From NCBI GenBank assembly GCA_902779675.1, contig CACZCK010000003.1, forward strand, positions 261,259 through 325,258: a stretch of 64,000 nucleotides of DNA, written 5' to 3'. Positions 10,969 through 18,886 of this stretch are shown piece by piece (the stretch's first letter is position 1; the number at the start of each line of letters is the position of its first letter). Both the position numbers and the translations under genes were made by a program. Origin of the DNA: an uncultured Coriobacteriaceae bacterium (lineage in GTDB: Bacteria; Actinomycetota; Coriobacteriia; Coriobacteriales; Atopobiaceae). The notes beneath the pieces were generated by a model that saw only the letters and a program-made list of their open reading frames with translations, was not told the DNA's origin and searched no databases.

Positions 10969-12633
10969 ATGTTCAGAAACGAAAGCGGAGGCGGCTTGCT
11001 GCGCACGCTGCTGGCGGGAGTGCTGGCCCTGGCACTCGCAGCGGCAGCACCTTGTCTAGCCAGCGCCGGCGAACCCGCAGCGCAGGCCACAGGATCGCTC
11101 ACCATCACGCAGCACCACAACGAGGGAGCGACCTATGACGCCTACCAGGTGTTTGCCGGCGACGTCGCTCCCGACGGCAGCGCCACTCATCTCACGTGGG
11201 CGTCGGACCAGACAAAGGACGCCGCACTCGCCTATTTCGACGCACAGGGATACGAGGCCTGGCTCACCGAGCGCCACCCCGGAGAGGGCCAGCACGACTT
11301 CGCTCAGAACGCTGCCGAGTACGCGTCCCATCGAATGGCAGGAGCCGAGGCAAAAGACGGGGAAGGCGCCGATCCGTCTGCCGCATCGTTCGGTCTCGGA
11401 CTCGCCAAGGCGCTCGCCGGTAGCGGCGTCGCCCCCAGCGGGGTTGCCACGGCCGGCGAACCCTTCGAAGGCGCACAGGGGCTCTGGCTCTTTGTGACCA
11501 CGGACACAACGACCGACGCTCCCTCAGAGGCAGGGACCCTTCCCCTCTGGCTTCCCCTCGGCGCCGAGAAGACGCAGGTCGACGAGAAGAGCGCTGTGCC
11601 CGCCGTATCCATCGAGGTGTGCGAGGACTCCACCGGCACATGGGGCAAGACGGCCGACGCACATCGTGCACAAGAGGTTGGCCTCCGCGTCACGGGCACG
11701 CTGCCTACCAACTTTGCCTCGTTCGAGCACTATCACTACCGCATGGACGTACATCTGCCAAAGGGCATGACGCTCTCCGTTCCCAAGGATGTCGGTCTTG
11801 CCAAGGCGCTGGTCATCAGGGTTGGCGACCACGAGGTCGTCCCCGACGGCGAGGGCTGCATCGCCTCGCTCGAGGATGGCTCGCTCGCCATCGACTTCCC
11901 AGACCTCAAGGCAGCATGCTGGCAGGATCTCGGCATAGGTGCCGACACCAAGGTCACCTGCCAATTCAAGGCGCAGCTCAACGACGCGGCGTGCATTGGC
12001 ATGCCAGGTAACGCGGTCGAGGCAAGCCTCACCTACACCGACGACCCCGTAAGCCAGCTCGACGGCCAGACGGGCATTGACACCGTGACCGTCTTCTCCC
12101 ATCAGGTGGAGCTGCTCAAGGTTGCCGACCAGACGGACAATCCGCTCGAAGGAGCCGAGTTCACCGTGCAGGTGGCTCCCCAGAACGCCGACGAGCCGTC
12201 TCGCGGACGCTATGTCGGCGCTGACGGGTCGCTTTCCGATGCTCCCCAGGCCCTCAGGACCGACGGCCAGGGAAGGCTGCGCATCGCAGGACTCGACGAG
12301 GGCGTCTACCTCATCAGCGAGACAACGGCGCCCGCAGGGTATGCCCCGCTGCCTTCCGAGGTCGGCCTCACGCTGGTCTCCACACTCTCCGACATGGATC
12401 AAGCCTTGACGGAGCTGACGGCCTCGTCGTCGCTCGAGGCAGCGCGAGTCACGAAGGTCGACCCCGACACGGCGACCGTCTCCCTGACGGTGCGCGACGC
12501 GCCGCTGTCCACGTCTTCTCAGTCGGGCGGGGCAGAACGCCTCCCCCAGACCGGCGTTGGCCCGATTGCCGGCGCACTGATCGCCCTCGGACTCGCGATT
12601 GCCGGCATTTCGCTCATGAAGGGCCGTGCCTGA
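10969..12633 (+). CDS. LPXTG pilin, SpaD/FimA type, with altered middle domain
   Basis: A 554-residue secreted, sortase-anchored pilin. Signal peptide about 1-33; D1 opens SLTITQHHNEGATYDAYQVF; the likely polymerising lysine K207 lies in DEKSAVP; D3 is a CnaB/SpaA domain (ELLKVADQ... to VSLTVRDAP); sorting signal LPQTG at 525-529, hydrophobic helix and basic end. Compared with the next gene, the middle domain has Ile215 in place of the isopeptide lysine and Val350 in place of its asparagine, and has gained Cys218, 297, 317, 331 and 342. The bond has therefore been lost and disulfides may replace it. First gene of the pilus operon; RBS AGGAGG. Confidence 0.88.
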   Translation: MFRNESGGGLLRTLLAGVLALALAAAAPCLASAGEPAAQATGSLTITQHHNEGATYDAYQVFAGDVAPDGSATHLTWASDQTKDAALAYFDAQGYEAWLTERHPGEGQHDFAQNAAEYASHRMAGAEAKDGEGADPSAASFGLGLAKALAGSGVAPSGVATAGEPFEGAQGLWLFVTTDTTTDAPSEAGTLPLWLPLGAEKTQVDEKSAVPAVSIEVCEDSTGTWGKTADAHRAQEVGLRVTGTLPTNFASFEHYHYRMDVHLPKGMTLSVPKDVGLAKALVIRVGDHEVVPDGEGCIASLEDGSLAIDFPDLKAACWQDLGIGADTKVTCQFKAQLNDAACIGMPGNAVEASLTYTDDPVSQLDGQTGIDTVTVFSHQVELLKVADQTDNPLEGAEFTVQVAPQNADEPSRGRYVGADGSLSDAPQALRTDGQGRLRIAGLDEGVYLISETTAPAGYAPLPSEVGLTLVSTLSDMDQALTELTASSSLEAARVTKVDPDTATVSLTVRDAPLSTSSQSGGAERLPQTGVGPIAGALIALGLAIAGISLMKGRA

Positions 12634-12673
12634 ACCGCGGCCAAGGCAAGAAACCACCACGAAAGGATCGTCC

Positions 12674-14371
12674 ATGAACGTCTCATGCAAGAGTTGCGCT
12701 CGCAAGGCAGTGGCAGCCGGCCTCGGCCTCGCCCTGATGGCAGGTTGTCTGCTCCCGGCACAAACCGCCTTCGCAGAGACTGCCACGCTCACCATCACCC
12801 AACAGCACAACAAGGACGCCACCTACGACGCCTATCAGCTCTTCAGGGCACGCATTTCGGCTAACGACGATGCCACCCACGTCGAGTGGGCCACAGACGA
12901 CATGAGCTCCGTCTTGCTCCCCTTCCTCGATGCGAACGGATACCAACAGTGGCTCAAGGACCACCATCCGGGCGAAGGACAGCATGACAAGGCCCAGAAC
13001 GCTGCAGAGTTCATTGCGGCAAAGATCAAGGACTCGCCCACCGACACCAAGGCAGCCACCAAGCCACGCACCACACAGGGCCGATCGTTCGCCAACGAGC
13101 TGGCTCGTCACCTCGCCGCAAAGGCGAGTCCGCACAAGCAGAAGGCAAGCTCAGGGAAGCCGTTCGAAGGCGAGCAGGGCTACTGGCTGTTCGTCACCAC
13201 CGAGGCGACGGAGGCGTCGGCCGACGACGCAGGCACCGCACCCCTGTGGGTCCCCTTGGGAGGCTCGACGACCGCCATCACGGAGAAGAGCGCCGTGCCC
13301 TCGGTCACCAAGGAAGTCAAGGAGGACTCGACGGGCGCCTGGGGCAGCGTCGCCGATGCCAATACGACACAAGACCTCTCGTATCGAATCGTGGGCAGCC
13401 TTCCCGCCAACTTCGGCACATTCGCCCAGTACCACTACCGCGTGACCGACACGCTCTCGAAGGGCCTCGACCTCAATGTGCCTAAAGGGGCCAAGCTCGC
13501 CGACCACCTTTCCGTGCGGCTCGGAGACAAGGAGGTGGTTGTCGATGGGACACACGTCCAGGCGAGCTATGACGGGCGCGTGCTTGCGATCGACTTCCCC
13601 AACCTTAAAGACGCGTACTGGAAGGACTATGCCATCGGAGCCGACACGAAGGTCACCATCGAATACCAGGCACATATGAACGCAAGCAGGACCCTGGGAG
13701 CACCGGGCAACGACAACGAGGCCTATGTCACCTACACCCGCGACCCAGTGCGTTCGGGCGACGGTCGCACGACGCCCGCCCCGCCCGTCAGGACCTTCTC
13801 CTACGGCATACAGCTCCTCAAGGTGGACGAGCAGACCAACGAGCCGCTTTCTGGCGCGACCTTCACCATGCAGGTGGCACAGGGCAACTCCGACGAGGGT
13901 TCCAAGGGCTCCTACGTCCAGCAGGACGGCTCTCTTGGAGAGGCCGAGCATCGCTTTGTCACGGGCAGCGACGGCACGTTCTCGGTCAGCGGACTCGACG
14001 AGGGCACCTACACGATCAAGGAGGTCTCGGCCCTGCCCGGATTCGACCTGATCGATGAAGACGTCACGCTGACCATCACGTCGACGCTCGACGGCAAGGC
14101 CCAGAAGCTGGAGAAGCTCACGGCGACGGCGTCGGGAGGCAATGCTGTCAAAGTGCATCCGATGGGAGCCGCCGTGACCGCCGTCGATGCCAAGGCGGGA
14201 ACCGTCCAGCTCAGCGTGACCAACGACCGACGTCTCGCGCTCCCCCTCACCGGCCAAGGCGGCCTCTCCGACGCATCTGCCCTGGGGAGTGCGGTGGCGC
14301 TCGCCGCTGGCGTCGGGCTCGTGAGGCGCCAGCACAAGGGCATCGCATCGGACATGGGCGCCCTAGCCTAG
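12674..14371 (+). CDS. LPXTG pilin, SpaD/FimA type
   Basis: A 565-residue paralogue of the preceding pilin, with the same layout: signal peptide about 1-35, D1 with ATYDAYQLF, the EKSAVP segment with candidate pilin lysine K205, D2 with isopeptide lysine K213 (VTKEV) and partner N348 (NEAYVTY), a CnaB-type D3 (LLKVDEQT... LSVTND), LPLTG at 523-527, membrane helix and short tail. The mature chain has no cysteine, as usual for isopeptide-stabilised pilins. Class C sortases join such subunits through the pilin lysine. ATG 12674 follows GAAAGGA; 40-base gap from the first pilin gene. Confidence 0.88.
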   Translation: MNVSCKSCARKAVAAGLGLALMAGCLLPAQTAFAETATLTITQQHNKDATYDAYQLFRARISANDDATHVEWATDDMSSVLLPFLDANGYQQWLKDHHPGEGQHDKAQNAAEFIAAKIKDSPTDTKAATKPRTTQGRSFANELARHLAAKASPHKQKASSGKPFEGEQGYWLFVTTEATEASADDAGTAPLWVPLGGSTTAITEKSAVPSVTKEVKEDSTGAWGSVADANTTQDLSYRIVGSLPANFGTFAQYHYRVTDTLSKGLDLNVPKGAKLADHLSVRLGDKEVVVDGTHVQASYDGRVLAIDFPNLKDAYWKDYAIGADTKVTIEYQAHMNASRTLGAPGNDNEAYVTYTRDPVRSGDGRTTPAPPVRTFSYGIQLLKVDEQTNEPLSGATFTMQVAQGNSDEGSKGSYVQQDGSLGEAEHRFVTGSDGTFSVSGLDEGTYTIKEVSALPGFDLIDEDVTLTITSTLDGKAQKLEKLTATASGGNAVKVHPMGAAVTAVDAKAGTVQLSVTNDRRLALPLTGQGGLSDASALGSAVALAAGVGLVRRQHKGIASDMGALA

Positions 14372-14384
14372 GAAGGAGGAGGAC

Positions 14385-17138
14385 ATGAGGCAGAGCGAAC
14401 GACATCACATGCACGCACCGCGGGGACGCCTGACACGGATCCTGCTGGCCATCATGGCGGCGCTCCTGGTCGGACTCGCGCGTCCCACGCGGGCACAGGC
14501 GGCCGTAACGCTCACCAAGGACGGGCTCGAAAGCGCCGACAGGGCGACCTGTGTCATCGACGTCGACTCGTACCAGGACTTCACGTTCGAGGCGAGCGAG
14601 GGCTCCCCCTTCCGCCTCGACACGCGAGACGGCGTCTTCAAGGAGTACGTCGGCGGAACCGAGCACGTTATCTACGGCGTGTATGTCGACTACACCCCTC
14701 AGGCAGGCGTCACCACACTGCCCGGATACTTTGAGATCACCTATCCGAAGGGGCTGCTCGACGCCGACGGCAACCGCCACGACCTGCACGTGAGGTTCTC
14801 GAACGTCATCTACAAGTGGGCCAGGTCACCCCAGACCGGTCCGGTGGCGCAGCAGCTGATCGGGGCCACTGACGACGGCCTTCGCATCATGGCCGAATGC
14901 AGCTCGATGCTCAGGGACTCCGAGGTGGTGCCGTACGACCCATGGTCCACAGGCACGGTCAACCCGTTCGGCGTCTCGTGCGACATCCGCATGTGGTGCG
15001 ACGACGACGCGACGCTCCTGTACAACGTGTACGCCCGCGACATCGACCAGCCAGACCGCTTCACGGGCCGCACGGCAGCCACCTGCTCCTACGAGGGTGA
15101 GTGGTCTGAGTCCCTCGAGCCGCTCGGCACCTTCGAGAGCTTCCACGTCCACAAGGACAGCTGGCTCAGGAGCGACGGCATACGCATACGCGGCACCAAG
15201 TCGGACGACGACGAGGCGCTCAACCGCTCGGGCTTCGTCGGGCTCGGCACCATGAGCGCCGCGACTCCGCTCGGGTTCGTCTGGAGGGGATCGATGTGCT
15301 CCTCCCACATCCTCCAGGATTGGAGACACACCCTCAAGACGCGCGTCGTCGACGGCGTCGGAGGAACCATCGACACCAAGGCCGGCAGCGAGTCGCAGCG
15401 CACCATCAAGAGCAACGCCGCCGATACCTGGGACAACACCAACACCGTGCCCAAGAACAACTATGTGGTCACGGCCACCCCGGCCAAGGGCTACCGTATC
15501 GCCGAGATGTGGCTTGACGACAAGAGGCTCTCCGACAAGGAGGCTTCCGCCGGCGCCGTGAGCATCCCCTCCGTGACGGCCGACCATACCGTGGCCGTCA
15601 GGTTCGAGCCCCTCGGCACCGCGCTCTCCCTCGTCAAGGCCTCGGCCGCTCCGGCCATCACCGACGGCAACCCCTGCTACTCGCTCAAGGGCGCCGAATA
15701 CGGCGTCTACTCCGACAAGGAGTGCACGATGGCGGTGGGCTCCCTCGTGACCTCGGCAAATGGGACGAGCAACAGTCTCACCCTCCCCGCAGGAAGCTAT
15801 TACGTGAAGGAGATCAAGCCATCTGCGGGCTATGCGCTCGACCCCACCGTGCACGAGGCGAAGGTCGGCGAGACGGGAGGAACCGTGCTCGACGTGACGG
15901 AACGACCCCAGACCAACCCCCTCTCGCTGCTAGCGCTCAAGGTCGACGCTCAGACCAAGAAGGCGCAGCCGCAAGGCGCGGCCTCACTCGCCGAGGCCCA
16001 GTTCACGGTGTGCTACTACAACGCGCTCCTCACAAGCGACAAACTGCCCAAGGACCCCACACGTACGTGGGTGCTCAAGACCGACAACCAGGGCAGGGCG
16101 AGCCTCGACGAGGCACACAAGGTCTCTGGCGACCCGTTCTTTCAGATGGATGGCACCACTGTCGTGCCCCTGGGGACGCTCACCATAGAGGAGACCAAGG
16201 CGCCGAAGGGTTACATGCTCCCCAAGGACAGTCTGACGCTCTACCAGATAACCCCGAAGGGAACAAAGGCGACACTCTCTCAGATTCTCGAGCCCAGCGA
16301 AGCGAACCCGACCGTCTTGGAGCAAGTCGCCCGGGGCGGCATCAAGGTGAAGAAGGTCGACGCGGCAGGCAAGCCGCTCGCAGGTGCGACCTTCTCCGTT
16401 ACAACAACCTCGGACCATCCCGTGGTCGTCGGCGGCAAGTCCTTTGACAAGGGTGCGGTCTGCGCAACGATGACCTCAGACGAGAACGGCATCGCATCAA
16501 CCAGTGCCGACTCACTTCCCTACGGAACCTATCGCATCACCGAGACCAAGGCGCCGAAGGGGTACCAGGCCAACGAGAAGTGGGCCGCAGACGTGACCAT
16601 AGGCGAGAACGCATACGTCGCCGATCTCACCAAGCAGCCTGTCGTCAACGAACCCATCTCCGTCAGCGTGCCCGTCACGGCCACCAAGCGTCTCGAGGGC
16701 ACCCTTCCCGGTCAGGGACTCAAGGCCGACGCGTACTCGTTTACGCTCTCGGCAGAGGATGGCACGGTTCTACAGACCAAGCGCAACGACGCCAAGGGTT
16801 CAATACGGTTCGACGCCCTCTCCTTCACCCACGACGACCTCGGCAAGAAGCATGTCTACCTCATCCGAGAGGTGGCGGGCGACGATGACGGCATCGTCTA
16901 CGACGGCCATGTCGAGCGGTTCGAGATCGCCCTGGAGGAGCAGGGGGACGGCAGCCTCAAGGCGGAGGTAAAGGCCGACCGTGACGGCCTGGTGTTCGTC
17001 AACGAGGTGTTGGCCCCCATCGCCCTGCCCGTAACGGGTCGCGGGGGGATCTTCGGCGCATGGGCAGCCGCGGCGGCGTCTGGCATTGCTATCGGCATCT
17101 ACCTGCGACGCCGCACCATCAGGAGCCGTCGGCCGTGA
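14385..17138 (+). CDS. Large LPXTG adhesin, probable pilus tip protein
   Basis: A 917-residue secreted surface protein. Signal peptide about 1-40; residues about 41-400 form a large N-terminal region with several cysteines and no recognised domain, likely the binding head. Then come CnaB/SpaA-type domains (LSLVKASAAP..., LLALKVDAQT..., IKVKKVDAAGKPLAGATFSV...) with repeated EETKAPKGY/ETKAPKGY motifs, and an FctA/Spy0128-like domain (VTATKRLEGTLPGQGLKADAYSFTL). It ends LPVTG, a hydrophobic helix and a basic tail. RBS GGAGGAGG. The stop overlaps the GTG of the sortase gene. Large CnaB-rich proteins beside pilins are usually tip adhesins. Confidence 0.85.
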   Translation: MRQSERHHMHAPRGRLTRILLAIMAALLVGLARPTRAQAAVTLTKDGLESADRATCVIDVDSYQDFTFEASEGSPFRLDTRDGVFKEYVGGTEHVIYGVYVDYTPQAGVTTLPGYFEITYPKGLLDADGNRHDLHVRFSNVIYKWARSPQTGPVAQQLIGATDDGLRIMAECSSMLRDSEVVPYDPWSTGTVNPFGVSCDIRMWCDDDATLLYNVYARDIDQPDRFTGRTAATCSYEGEWSESLEPLGTFESFHVHKDSWLRSDGIRIRGTKSDDDEALNRSGFVGLGTMSAATPLGFVWRGSMCSSHILQDWRHTLKTRVVDGVGGTIDTKAGSESQRTIKSNAADTWDNTNTVPKNNYVVTATPAKGYRIAEMWLDDKRLSDKEASAGAVSIPSVTADHTVAVRFEPLGTALSLVKASAAPAITDGNPCYSLKGAEYGVYSDKECTMAVGSLVTSANGTSNSLTLPAGSYYVKEIKPSAGYALDPTVHEAKVGETGGTVLDVTERPQTNPLSLLALKVDAQTKKAQPQGAASLAEAQFTVCYYNALLTSDKLPKDPTRTWVLKTDNQGRASLDEAHKVSGDPFFQMDGTTVVPLGTLTIEETKAPKGYMLPKDSLTLYQITPKGTKATLSQILEPSEANPTVLEQVARGGIKVKKVDAAGKPLAGATFSVTTTSDHPVVVGGKSFDKGAVCATMTSDENGIASTSADSLPYGTYRITETKAPKGYQANEKWAADVTIGENAYVADLTKQPVVNEPISVSVPVTATKRLEGTLPGQGLKADAYSFTLSAEDGTVLQTKRNDAKGSIRFDALSFTHDDLGKKHVYLIREVAGDDDGIVYDGHVERFEIALEEQGDGSLKAEVKADRDGLVFVNEVLAPIALPVTGRGGIFGAWAAAAASGIAIGIYLRRRTIRSRRP

Positions 17139-18886
17139 GGCCGGCACGACGCCGGCAGCGCCGGCAGGGCATCCCCGCAGCCTCCCGCCTGATAGACGCC
17201 TCGCTCGTCGCGGTCGCGCTCATCGCGGGAATCCTGTCCGCTCACCCCCTGGTCGAGGACCTGAGGAGCACCGTACACACCGACCGTGAGATATCCACGC
17301 TCTCGGCCACCATCGACGAGACCGACGACGAGGAGCGGCTGGACCTCTTGGGCCAGGCGCAGGCCTACAATGCCCGTCTCGGCGGCGAGGGCTATCGGCA
17401 GGACAATGGCGGCCTCAATGGATGCAACGGCGGAACCGGTGACGTCATCGAGGCGGACGCCCCAGAAGACGGAGAGCTGGCGCCCTACGAGCGCCAGCTC
17501 TCCCGGGGCGGCCACGAGGCGATGGGGTGGATCGAGCTGCCCTCCGTCGGCATCAGGCAACCTCTGCGACATGGGACGTCCGATGAGGTGCTTGCGGCAG
17601 GTGCGGGGCACCTGGAATGGTCGTCCCTGCCCGTGGGCGGCGTTCCCAGCCACTGCGTCGTCGCCGGGCACTCGGGCATGACGGCCACGCGCATGTTCGA
17701 CGACCTCGACGAGGTATCCGTCGGTGACACCGTCGTCCTGCACGTGCTCGGTGACGCCTACCAATACGAGGTCTACGGCATCGAGGTGGTCGAGCCCGAT
17801 GAGGTGCAGGACCGATGCGCCATCAGGCCCGGGGAGGACCTCTGCACGCTGATGACCTGCACGCCCTATGGCATCAACTCGCACAGGCTCCTGGTCCATG
17901 CGCGCAGATGTCCCTACGAGCCCTCTGACGAGCCCAAGGCCAGGATCATGGTGTCAAGAAGGCCCAGCAGGCGCGTGGCACCGCTCCTTTTGCTGGCTGG
18001 GACGCTTGGACTCGCAGGCGTCGTGCGATTGGTGCGCGCGCTCGTGCGGGCGAGACGTCGCCGGATCGCGCGGGGCGCGGCGCAAGCCGTTGGGGCGGCG
18101 ACGCGCCGACGCGGGACAAGGGCCCTTCGCATCACATCCGGCCTGCTCGTGGGACTTGTGCTCGTCGCGATGGGAGGGTCGGTCCTGGTGCGCCAAGGAC
18201 AGGAACGGCATGCCTTGGCGCAGCTTGCGTCCGACGTGACGGAACCACGGACGTCCACCCCAGACGGCACGGCCTCCCATGGCGGCATTCGCTGGGACGC
18301 CCTCCGCTCCGCGAACGAGGACGTCGCCGCGTGGGTTCGTGTCGAGGGCACCGACATCGACCTGCCCGTCGTCGCGCCGTCCGACGGCGACATGGCCTTC
18401 TATCTCACGCATGACCTCTGGCGCAAGCCTGCGATGGGAGGAGTCCCCTTCCTCGACCACCGTTGCGACGCCAACGGCGCGCACCGCATGGCCTTTGGCC
18501 ACCACCTGACCACGGGAGGGCAGTTCAGCAGCCTCCAGCACGCATCCGATCAGGCCTGTTTTGACACTCTGGGCGACTGCATCTGGCAGACTCCCGAGCA
18601 TGGCGCCTCCAGGCTCGTCCCCTTCTGCGCCTTCGAGGCCGACATGTGGTTCGAGCCCATACAGACCTTCGCGTTTGCCGACCAAGATGCGTTTCGAGTT
18701 TGGCTCGACACCGTCGCAAGCGACGCCTCGGCACATGCCGCCGCCTGGAAGGACCTTGCAGCCGAAGCCCAATCGGCCGTGACGCTGGTCACCTGCTCCT
18801 CGGACTTCCCGCGGCAGCGCTGGCGAACCTTCGTGGTATTCGTCGAGACAAGAGAGGAGACGATCGTGCAGGACACGACACCCTAG
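17135..18886 (+). CDS. Fusion of class C sortase and class B sortase
   Basis: One uninterrupted 583-residue frame. Residues about 18-38 form a first membrane helix; 125-258 are a class C (pilus-polymerising) sortase core with GTSDEVL, GGVPSHCVVAGHSG (His179), and LMTCTPYGINSHRLLVHAR (Cys242, Arg251). Helix two (281-304), a very basic loop (305-332) and helix three (333-352) follow. Residues 385-572 are a class B sortase core: DIDLPVV, GVPFLDHR, MAFGHHLTTGGQFSSL (His456), LVTCSSDFPRQRWRTFVVF (Cys554, Arg560/562). Both triads look complete and both cores would face outside. Translation starts at GTG 17135, overlapping the adhesin stop. The class C part lacks a clear DPF/DPW lid motif. Confidence 0.88.
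   Translation: MRPARRRQRRQGIPAASRLIDASLVAVALIAGILSAHPLVEDLRSTVHTDREISTLSATIDETDDEERLDLLGQAQAYNARLGGEGYRQDNGGLNGCNGGTGDVIEADAPEDGELAPYERQLSRGGHEAMGWIELPSVGIRQPLRHGTSDEVLAAGAGHLEWSSLPVGGVPSHCVVAGHSGMTATRMFDDLDEVSVGDTVVLHVLGDAYQYEVYGIEVVEPDEVQDRCAIRPGEDLCTLMTCTPYGINSHRLLVHARRCPYEPSDEPKARIMVSRRPSRRVAPLLLLAGTLGLAGVVRLVRALVRARRRRIARGAAQAVGAATRRRGTRALRITSGLLVGLVLVAMGGSVLVRQGQERHALAQLASDVTEPRTSTPDGTASHGGIRWDALRSANEDVAAWVRVEGTDIDLPVVAPSDGDMAFYLTHDLWRKPAMGGVPFLDHRCDANGAHRMAFGHHLTTGGQFSSLQHASDQACFDTLGDCIWQTPEHGASRLVPFCAFEADMWFEPIQTFAFADQDAFRVWLDTVASDASAHAAAWKDLAAEAQSAVTLVTCSSDFPRQRWRTFVVFVETREETIVQDTTP

Follow-up and report, generated by a model that had tools for sequence, protein, structure and literature searches.

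Does the single reading frame that closes a pilin operon in this gut or rumen bacterium encode a genuine fusion of two sortases, and could such a protein unite pilus polymerization and wall attachment in one chain? We addressed this question in the window, i.e., the whole 64,000-nucleotide stretch of DNA analyzed here, and in related genomes. The frame begins with a GTG that overlaps the stop codon of the preceding pilin gene, P3 (GTGA), and runs through 583 codons with zero internal stops. The initial annotation described it as one unbroken frame with class C and class B sortase cores, a description that the open frame, the profile matches and the structure matches all bear out. The N-terminal half scores 194.7 bits against the curated class C model NF033745 (cut-off 160; residues 27-258), matches the Pfam Sortase family at 1e-27 and aligns with class C sortase structures at E values down to 2.6e-39. 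It carries the triad H179, C242 and R251, exactly as first assigned (motif TLxTCTPYGxNxxR), and displays other features of its class, namely membrane helices at both ends and a gene located within a pilin operon. A motif search of the region between AYN and strand 1, in the fusion protein and five orthologs, found no DP[FWY] lid motif. In its place, at window positions 17360-17520 and in the orthologs, lies a conserved Asn/Gly-rich stretch, DNxGxxGGNxxxDI.

The profile search proposed in the initial annotation thus places the N-terminal half in class C above the cut-off, and the C-terminal half in class B below it: against the class B model TIGR03064 the latter scores 67.4 bits (E 1e-18), far under the curated cut-off of 153.75, which the separate class B ortholog also fails to reach (59.1 bits). 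The C-terminal half matches class B structures over residues 390-562, with E values down to 9e-11, and a Foldseek fold search using a model of this half (mean pLDDT 55) returned 17 matches at E <0.001, all 17 of them class B sortases. In the same model, and at a pLDDT of only 55, helices 157-170 and 178-184 lie between strands 6 and 7; a structure model of the full protein, with a pLDDT of 50 and an alignment of six sequences, was used for fold class only. By profile, residue and fold, the second domain is a class B sortase, though a divergent one (67 bits compared with a cut-off of 153.75). Its catalytic residues had been proposed to be H456, C554 and either R560 or R562. The histidine and the cysteine stand, but the two candidate arginines, although common to both fused proteins known (see below), are not conserved in separate class B relatives, while R564, located at Cys+10 (WRT), is invariant and completes the triad.

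Between membrane segments 2 and 3 the protein has 11 Arg/Lys and 0 Asp/Glu in 31 residues. Given the positive-inside rule, a basic loop between these hydrophobic segments is predicted to leave both catalytic domains outside the cell, in agreement with the topology first drawn from the helices and the loop. A sequencing indel hiding a stop or a start between the halves had been raised as a possible source of error, and we found none: across positions 17927-18236, forward frames 2 and 3 contain no stop, nor does the frame of the fusion itself, so that one slip anywhere in the linker would not suffice to terminate a separate class C gene ahead of membrane segment 3. Together with the occurrence of the same fusion in a second genome, this rules out a hidden indel or stop at the joint. 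Judged from the sequence, the fusion is real, and consists of one polypeptide frame with two intact sortase domains and three membrane segments (Table 1).

Table 1. Coordinates, in window numbering, of the pilin genes and of the elements of the sortase fusion gene
Feature	Position	Strand	Basis
Pilin 1 (P1, 554 aa), proposed base pilin; signal RLPQTGVGP	10969..12633	+	SpaA/GramPos_pilinBB matches; LxQTG in 7/7 orthologs
Pilin 2 (P2, <=581 aa; start may be internal), proposed shaft pilin; LPLTG	12626..14371	+	SpaA, GramPos_pilinBB, RrgB_K2N_iso_D2
Pilin 3 (P3, 917 aa), proposed tip pilin; LPVTG	14385..17138	+	Three SpaA domains, FctA; signals of 6 orthologs
AGGAG, likely ribosome-binding site of fusion gene	17121..17125	+	Sequence; 9 nt before GTG
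Class C-class B sortase fusion gene, 583 aa	17135..18886	+	ORF, profile matches, G133 ortholog
Membrane segment 1 (aa 22-40)	17198..17254	+	Hydropathy
Class C sortase domain (aa 27-258; H179, C242, R251)	17213..17908	+	NF033745 above cut-off; PDB class C matches
Membrane segment 2 (aa 282-300), C-terminal helix of separate class C enzymes	17978..18034	+	Hydropathy; alignment
Basic loop at fusion joint (aa 301-332), predicted cytoplasmic; stop-free in every forward frame	18035..18130	+	
Membrane segment 3 (aa 333-351), N-terminal helix of separate class B enzymes	18131..18187	+	Hydropathy; alignment
Class B sortase domain (aa 390-564; H456, C554, R564)	18302..18826	+	Sequence, profile, residue and fold matches

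A search for the same domain order in other genomes, as had been suggested, recovered it in a single species besides the host. This species, G133 (RUG12341), is a second rumen member of the genus, represented by a metagenome assembly; its fusion protein has 578 aa, is 51% identical over residues 2-573 and is encoded at the same chromosomal place, with a NUDIX hydrolase, acetate kinase and exonuclease VII as shared neighbors. The C-B fusion is thus present in 2 of the 18 genomes of the genus searched. No other full-length C-B match was found among 397 genomes of the phylum, and none beyond the genus among the class B matches listed for 399 genomes of the order, where the close relatives listed lie in short frames. 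Four sister species (G135, G132, G127 and G130) have unfused sortase genes at the same place, class C first and class B next, which abut or overlap by a few bases, and the fusion joint aligns to the end of the class C gene and the start of the class B gene. The initial annotation had held that separate genes in relatives would speak against the fusion. Such genes do exist in these four species, yet the fusion stands since a second species is fused as well, and the two observations together indicate that it is not false but derived, descended by alignment from separate neighboring genes.

To which number of fusion events this distribution corresponds depends on the tree considered. In a tree of 21 other genes, the host genome groups with G130 and G127, both of which have separate genes, and this species tree rejects the host and G133 as sisters (p-AU 0.00022). 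A sister relationship of the fused species is also rejected by the P3 tree (1e-4) and by the whole-operon tree (0.0019), while the class C gene tree (p 0.35) and the class B gene tree (p 0.28) are compatible with the fusion having arisen once. One fusion event inherited by both species is thus disfavored by the species, P3 and operon trees, the class C and class B trees being undecided. As a sister relationship of the fused species is rejected by the species tree, two independent fusions are probably the simpler reading, in place of which transfer of the fused gene, or one old fusion that was split again several times, may be invoked.

The fusion gene is the last gene of a three-pilin operon that shows the features of SpaA-type pili, i.e., pilins with sorting signals and CnaB/SpaA domains. 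P1 and P2 are paralogs (45% identical), and an invariant EK column in their alignment is the sole trace of a shaft lysine. Across the genus, the P1 signal is LxQTG in all seven loci, whereas the P2 and P3 signals conform to [LM]P[LVM]TG and are LxQTG in 0 of 12 cases (six loci having both pilins), the P2 signal being [LM]P[LV]TG in 6 orthologs. This partition of signals between pilins, with LxQTG always on P1 and never on P2 or P3 as read from the encoded proteins, is new here. A reduced locus with the same flanking genes, in G123 (L041:8007-10342), retains only an LAQTG pilin and a class B gene; judging from gene content, the losses in this species comprise P2, P3 and the class C gene. We also examined loci other than the fusion locus, and found Q at signal position 3 in 10 of 13 cases when the surface-protein gene lies just upstream of a class B sortase, compared with 1 of 17 when it lies just upstream of a class C sortase (Fisher p 9e-5, which is optimistic because the loci are related, mostly belonging to the same order and not being fully independent).

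The host genome encodes three sortases each of class C and class B, two of the class B enzymes being located on contig C8, and searches with PF04203 and NF033747 detected no class A or E sortase in it. Given that class B-like sortases are found in 389 of 399 Coriobacteriales genomes, and that the host genome is devoid of class A and E, the housekeeping anchoring role in this order may belong to class B.

Other unusual sortase frames were encountered in these genomes. At another sortase locus of the host genome (contig C8, L048:8922-10361), a SipW-like signal peptidase I forms the N-terminal part of a fusion with a class B sortase, with both parts above curated cut-offs, which makes it a second kind of sortase fusion within the same genome; the same arrangement occurs in G126 (L052:16310-17770). 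In G131 (L042:7888-9420), two class C domains share one frame of at least 510 aa that ends at the contig end, and in other species (L057, L070) a pair of class C genes shows an overlap of a few bases. Several long frames were set aside. A 1250-aa class B frame of G133 (L047:9470-13222) at first resembled a further fusion, but its extra part looks like the reverse strand of a neighbor, and an assembly slip or the loss of a stop is the probable cause; a class C frame of 746 aa in G073 (L057) was not counted, as it holds unknown bases and unrelated sequence; and the long class B frames L110-L113 of the order are not C-B fusions.

Taken together, the partition of LxQTG, the reduced G123 locus, the 10/13 versus 1/17 association and the lack of class A and E sortases in the genome make it most likely that P1 is attached to the wall by the class B half, and that P2 and P3 are polymerized by the class C half. 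The division into a polymerase and an anchoring enzyme suggested in the initial annotation gains support from the signal partition and from this sortase complement. We therefore favor, with moderate confidence, a model in which an in-frame fusion of touching genes would have produced a two-headed pilus-assembly enzyme. On comparative evidence, its class C domain would cleave the [LM]P[LVM]TG signals of P3 (tip) and P2 (shaft) and polymerize these pilins, and its class B domain would cleave the LxQTG signal of the base pilin P1 and link P1 to peptidoglycan, filling the role that a housekeeping class A sortase has in other pili. Within such a chain, the pilin lysine of a P1 molecule bound to the class B cysteine could then attack the growing shaft on the class C cysteine, such that termination and anchoring would occur at one place and with a fixed 1:1 enzyme ratio. 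The similarity of P1 to P2 has a parallel in Corynebacterium diphtheriae, whose base pilin SpaB is similar to one domain of the shaft pilin; SpaB terminates polymerization, probably by competition, before the housekeeping sortase anchors it (PMC11389406).

How far the fusion itself contributes to this process is a separate matter. That the class C site passes the shaft directly to the class B site is a plausible proposal. The sister species manage with separate genes, so the fusion is not required, which speaks against the favored model. The stronger proposal, that the protein is an obligate two-site machine in which P1 on the class B cysteine would accept the shaft from the class C cysteine of its own chain and then be anchored, one intramolecular hand-off thereby uniting termination and wall attachment, and that the fusion evolved two or more times within the genus by virtue of its advantage, seems doubtful to us. 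It is somewhat easier to envisage, though still not probable, that the fusion is real and functionally neutral, its halves working as independently as the two enzymes of the sister species do, and the loss of the stop between overlapping genes bringing no coupling beyond equal expression. The four sister species work with separate genes, and since these already abut or overlap, equal expression and co-localization may exist without fusion; moreover, linker length is unequal between the two fused proteins, and fused and separate proteins have diverged alike, by about 50%. Neutrality fits less well with two fusion events, probably independent, that have each stayed in frame and preserved both active sites, or with the class C-class C fusion in the same genus (G131, L042), which points to a recurring trend.

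Membership in class B does not by itself prove an anchoring role, because in Streptococcus pyogenes a class B sortase, Spy0129, acts as a pilin polymerase (PMC3019223), and a Clostridium perfringens class B sortase may likewise polymerize pilins (PMC8088525). On the model of the S. pyogenes FCT-3 or C. perfringens pili, the class B half could thus be a second polymerase, or could attach P1 as an ancillary pilin, leaving anchoring to another class B sortase, for which the two encoded on contig C8 would be available. We consider this unlikely, as the G123 class B gene lies beside a single LAQTG pilin-like protein with no shaft pilin, and as the LxQTG genes found beside class B genes across the order often encode lone large surface proteins, which fits anchoring better than polymerization. 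Much less probable still is a cut in the loop after membrane insertion, yielding two ordinary sortases; a long arginine-rich loop could be protease-sensitive, but the predicted location of this one is the cytoplasm, and its counterpart in G133 is much shorter. As for an assembly or sequencing artifact joining two genes, the named comparison genomes are metagenome assemblies, yet the recurrence of the fusion in a second assembly and a joint free of stops in every forward frame make this explanation extremely improbable.

The favored model, that of a two-headed enzyme, bears on a step of pilus assembly, the passage of the pilus from polymerase to anchoring enzyme, that is known largely by inference, the two enzymes being separate proteins. 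With a natural protein that combines them, each cysteine could be eliminated in a purified system and the transfer from site to site measured. From the partition of LxQTG one can predict the pilins on which each half acts; the partition also suggests that, in Coriobacteriales, class B sortases take the place of the missing class A or E anchor. The initial annotation held that an architecture of this kind is not known to have been described, and we likewise found no natural sortase-sortase fusion in the open-access papers searched. As both enzyme families are already known, the C-B fusion is a new architecture of known parts.

Compared with the class C pilin polymerases Streptococcus agalactiae SrtC1 (4d7w) and Streptococcus pneumoniae SrtC-1 (2w1j), the N-terminal half has the same class, the same triad and membrane helices at its two ends, and is likewise encoded at the end of a pilin operon. 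It differs from them in having a second sortase behind its C-terminal helix, and in belonging to a clade without the DP[FWY] lid motif. The C-terminal half shares the triad, with its arginine at Cys+10, and an N-terminal membrane helix with the class B sortases C. perfringens SrtB (5b23), the S. pneumoniae type II pilus sortase (4y4q) and Staphylococcus aureus SrtB (1ng5), and may resemble them in the helices that the low-confidence model places between strands 6 and 7. Unlike these enzymes, it scores below the class B cut-off, is fused behind a class C enzyme and is linked, by genomic context alone, to LxQTG rather than NPQTN.

At the level of the whole system, the SpaA-type pilus of C. diphtheriae is similar in its tip, shaft and base pilins, in a base pilin that resembles the shaft pilin, and in relying on a polymerase and a separate anchoring sortase activity. 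In C. diphtheriae, however, the anchoring housekeeping sortase is encoded apart, whereas in the fusion protein this role would fall to the class B domain of the same polypeptide, and, unlike SpaA-type pili anchored by a housekeeping class A or E sortase, the present operon resides in a genome without either class. The pili of C. perfringens VR-10B and S. pyogenes FCT-3 also have a class B sortase devoted to the pilus operon; there, the enzyme polymerizes the shaft (as shown for S. pyogenes and proposed for C. perfringens), and it is unfused and works without a class C partner, in contrast to the protein described here.
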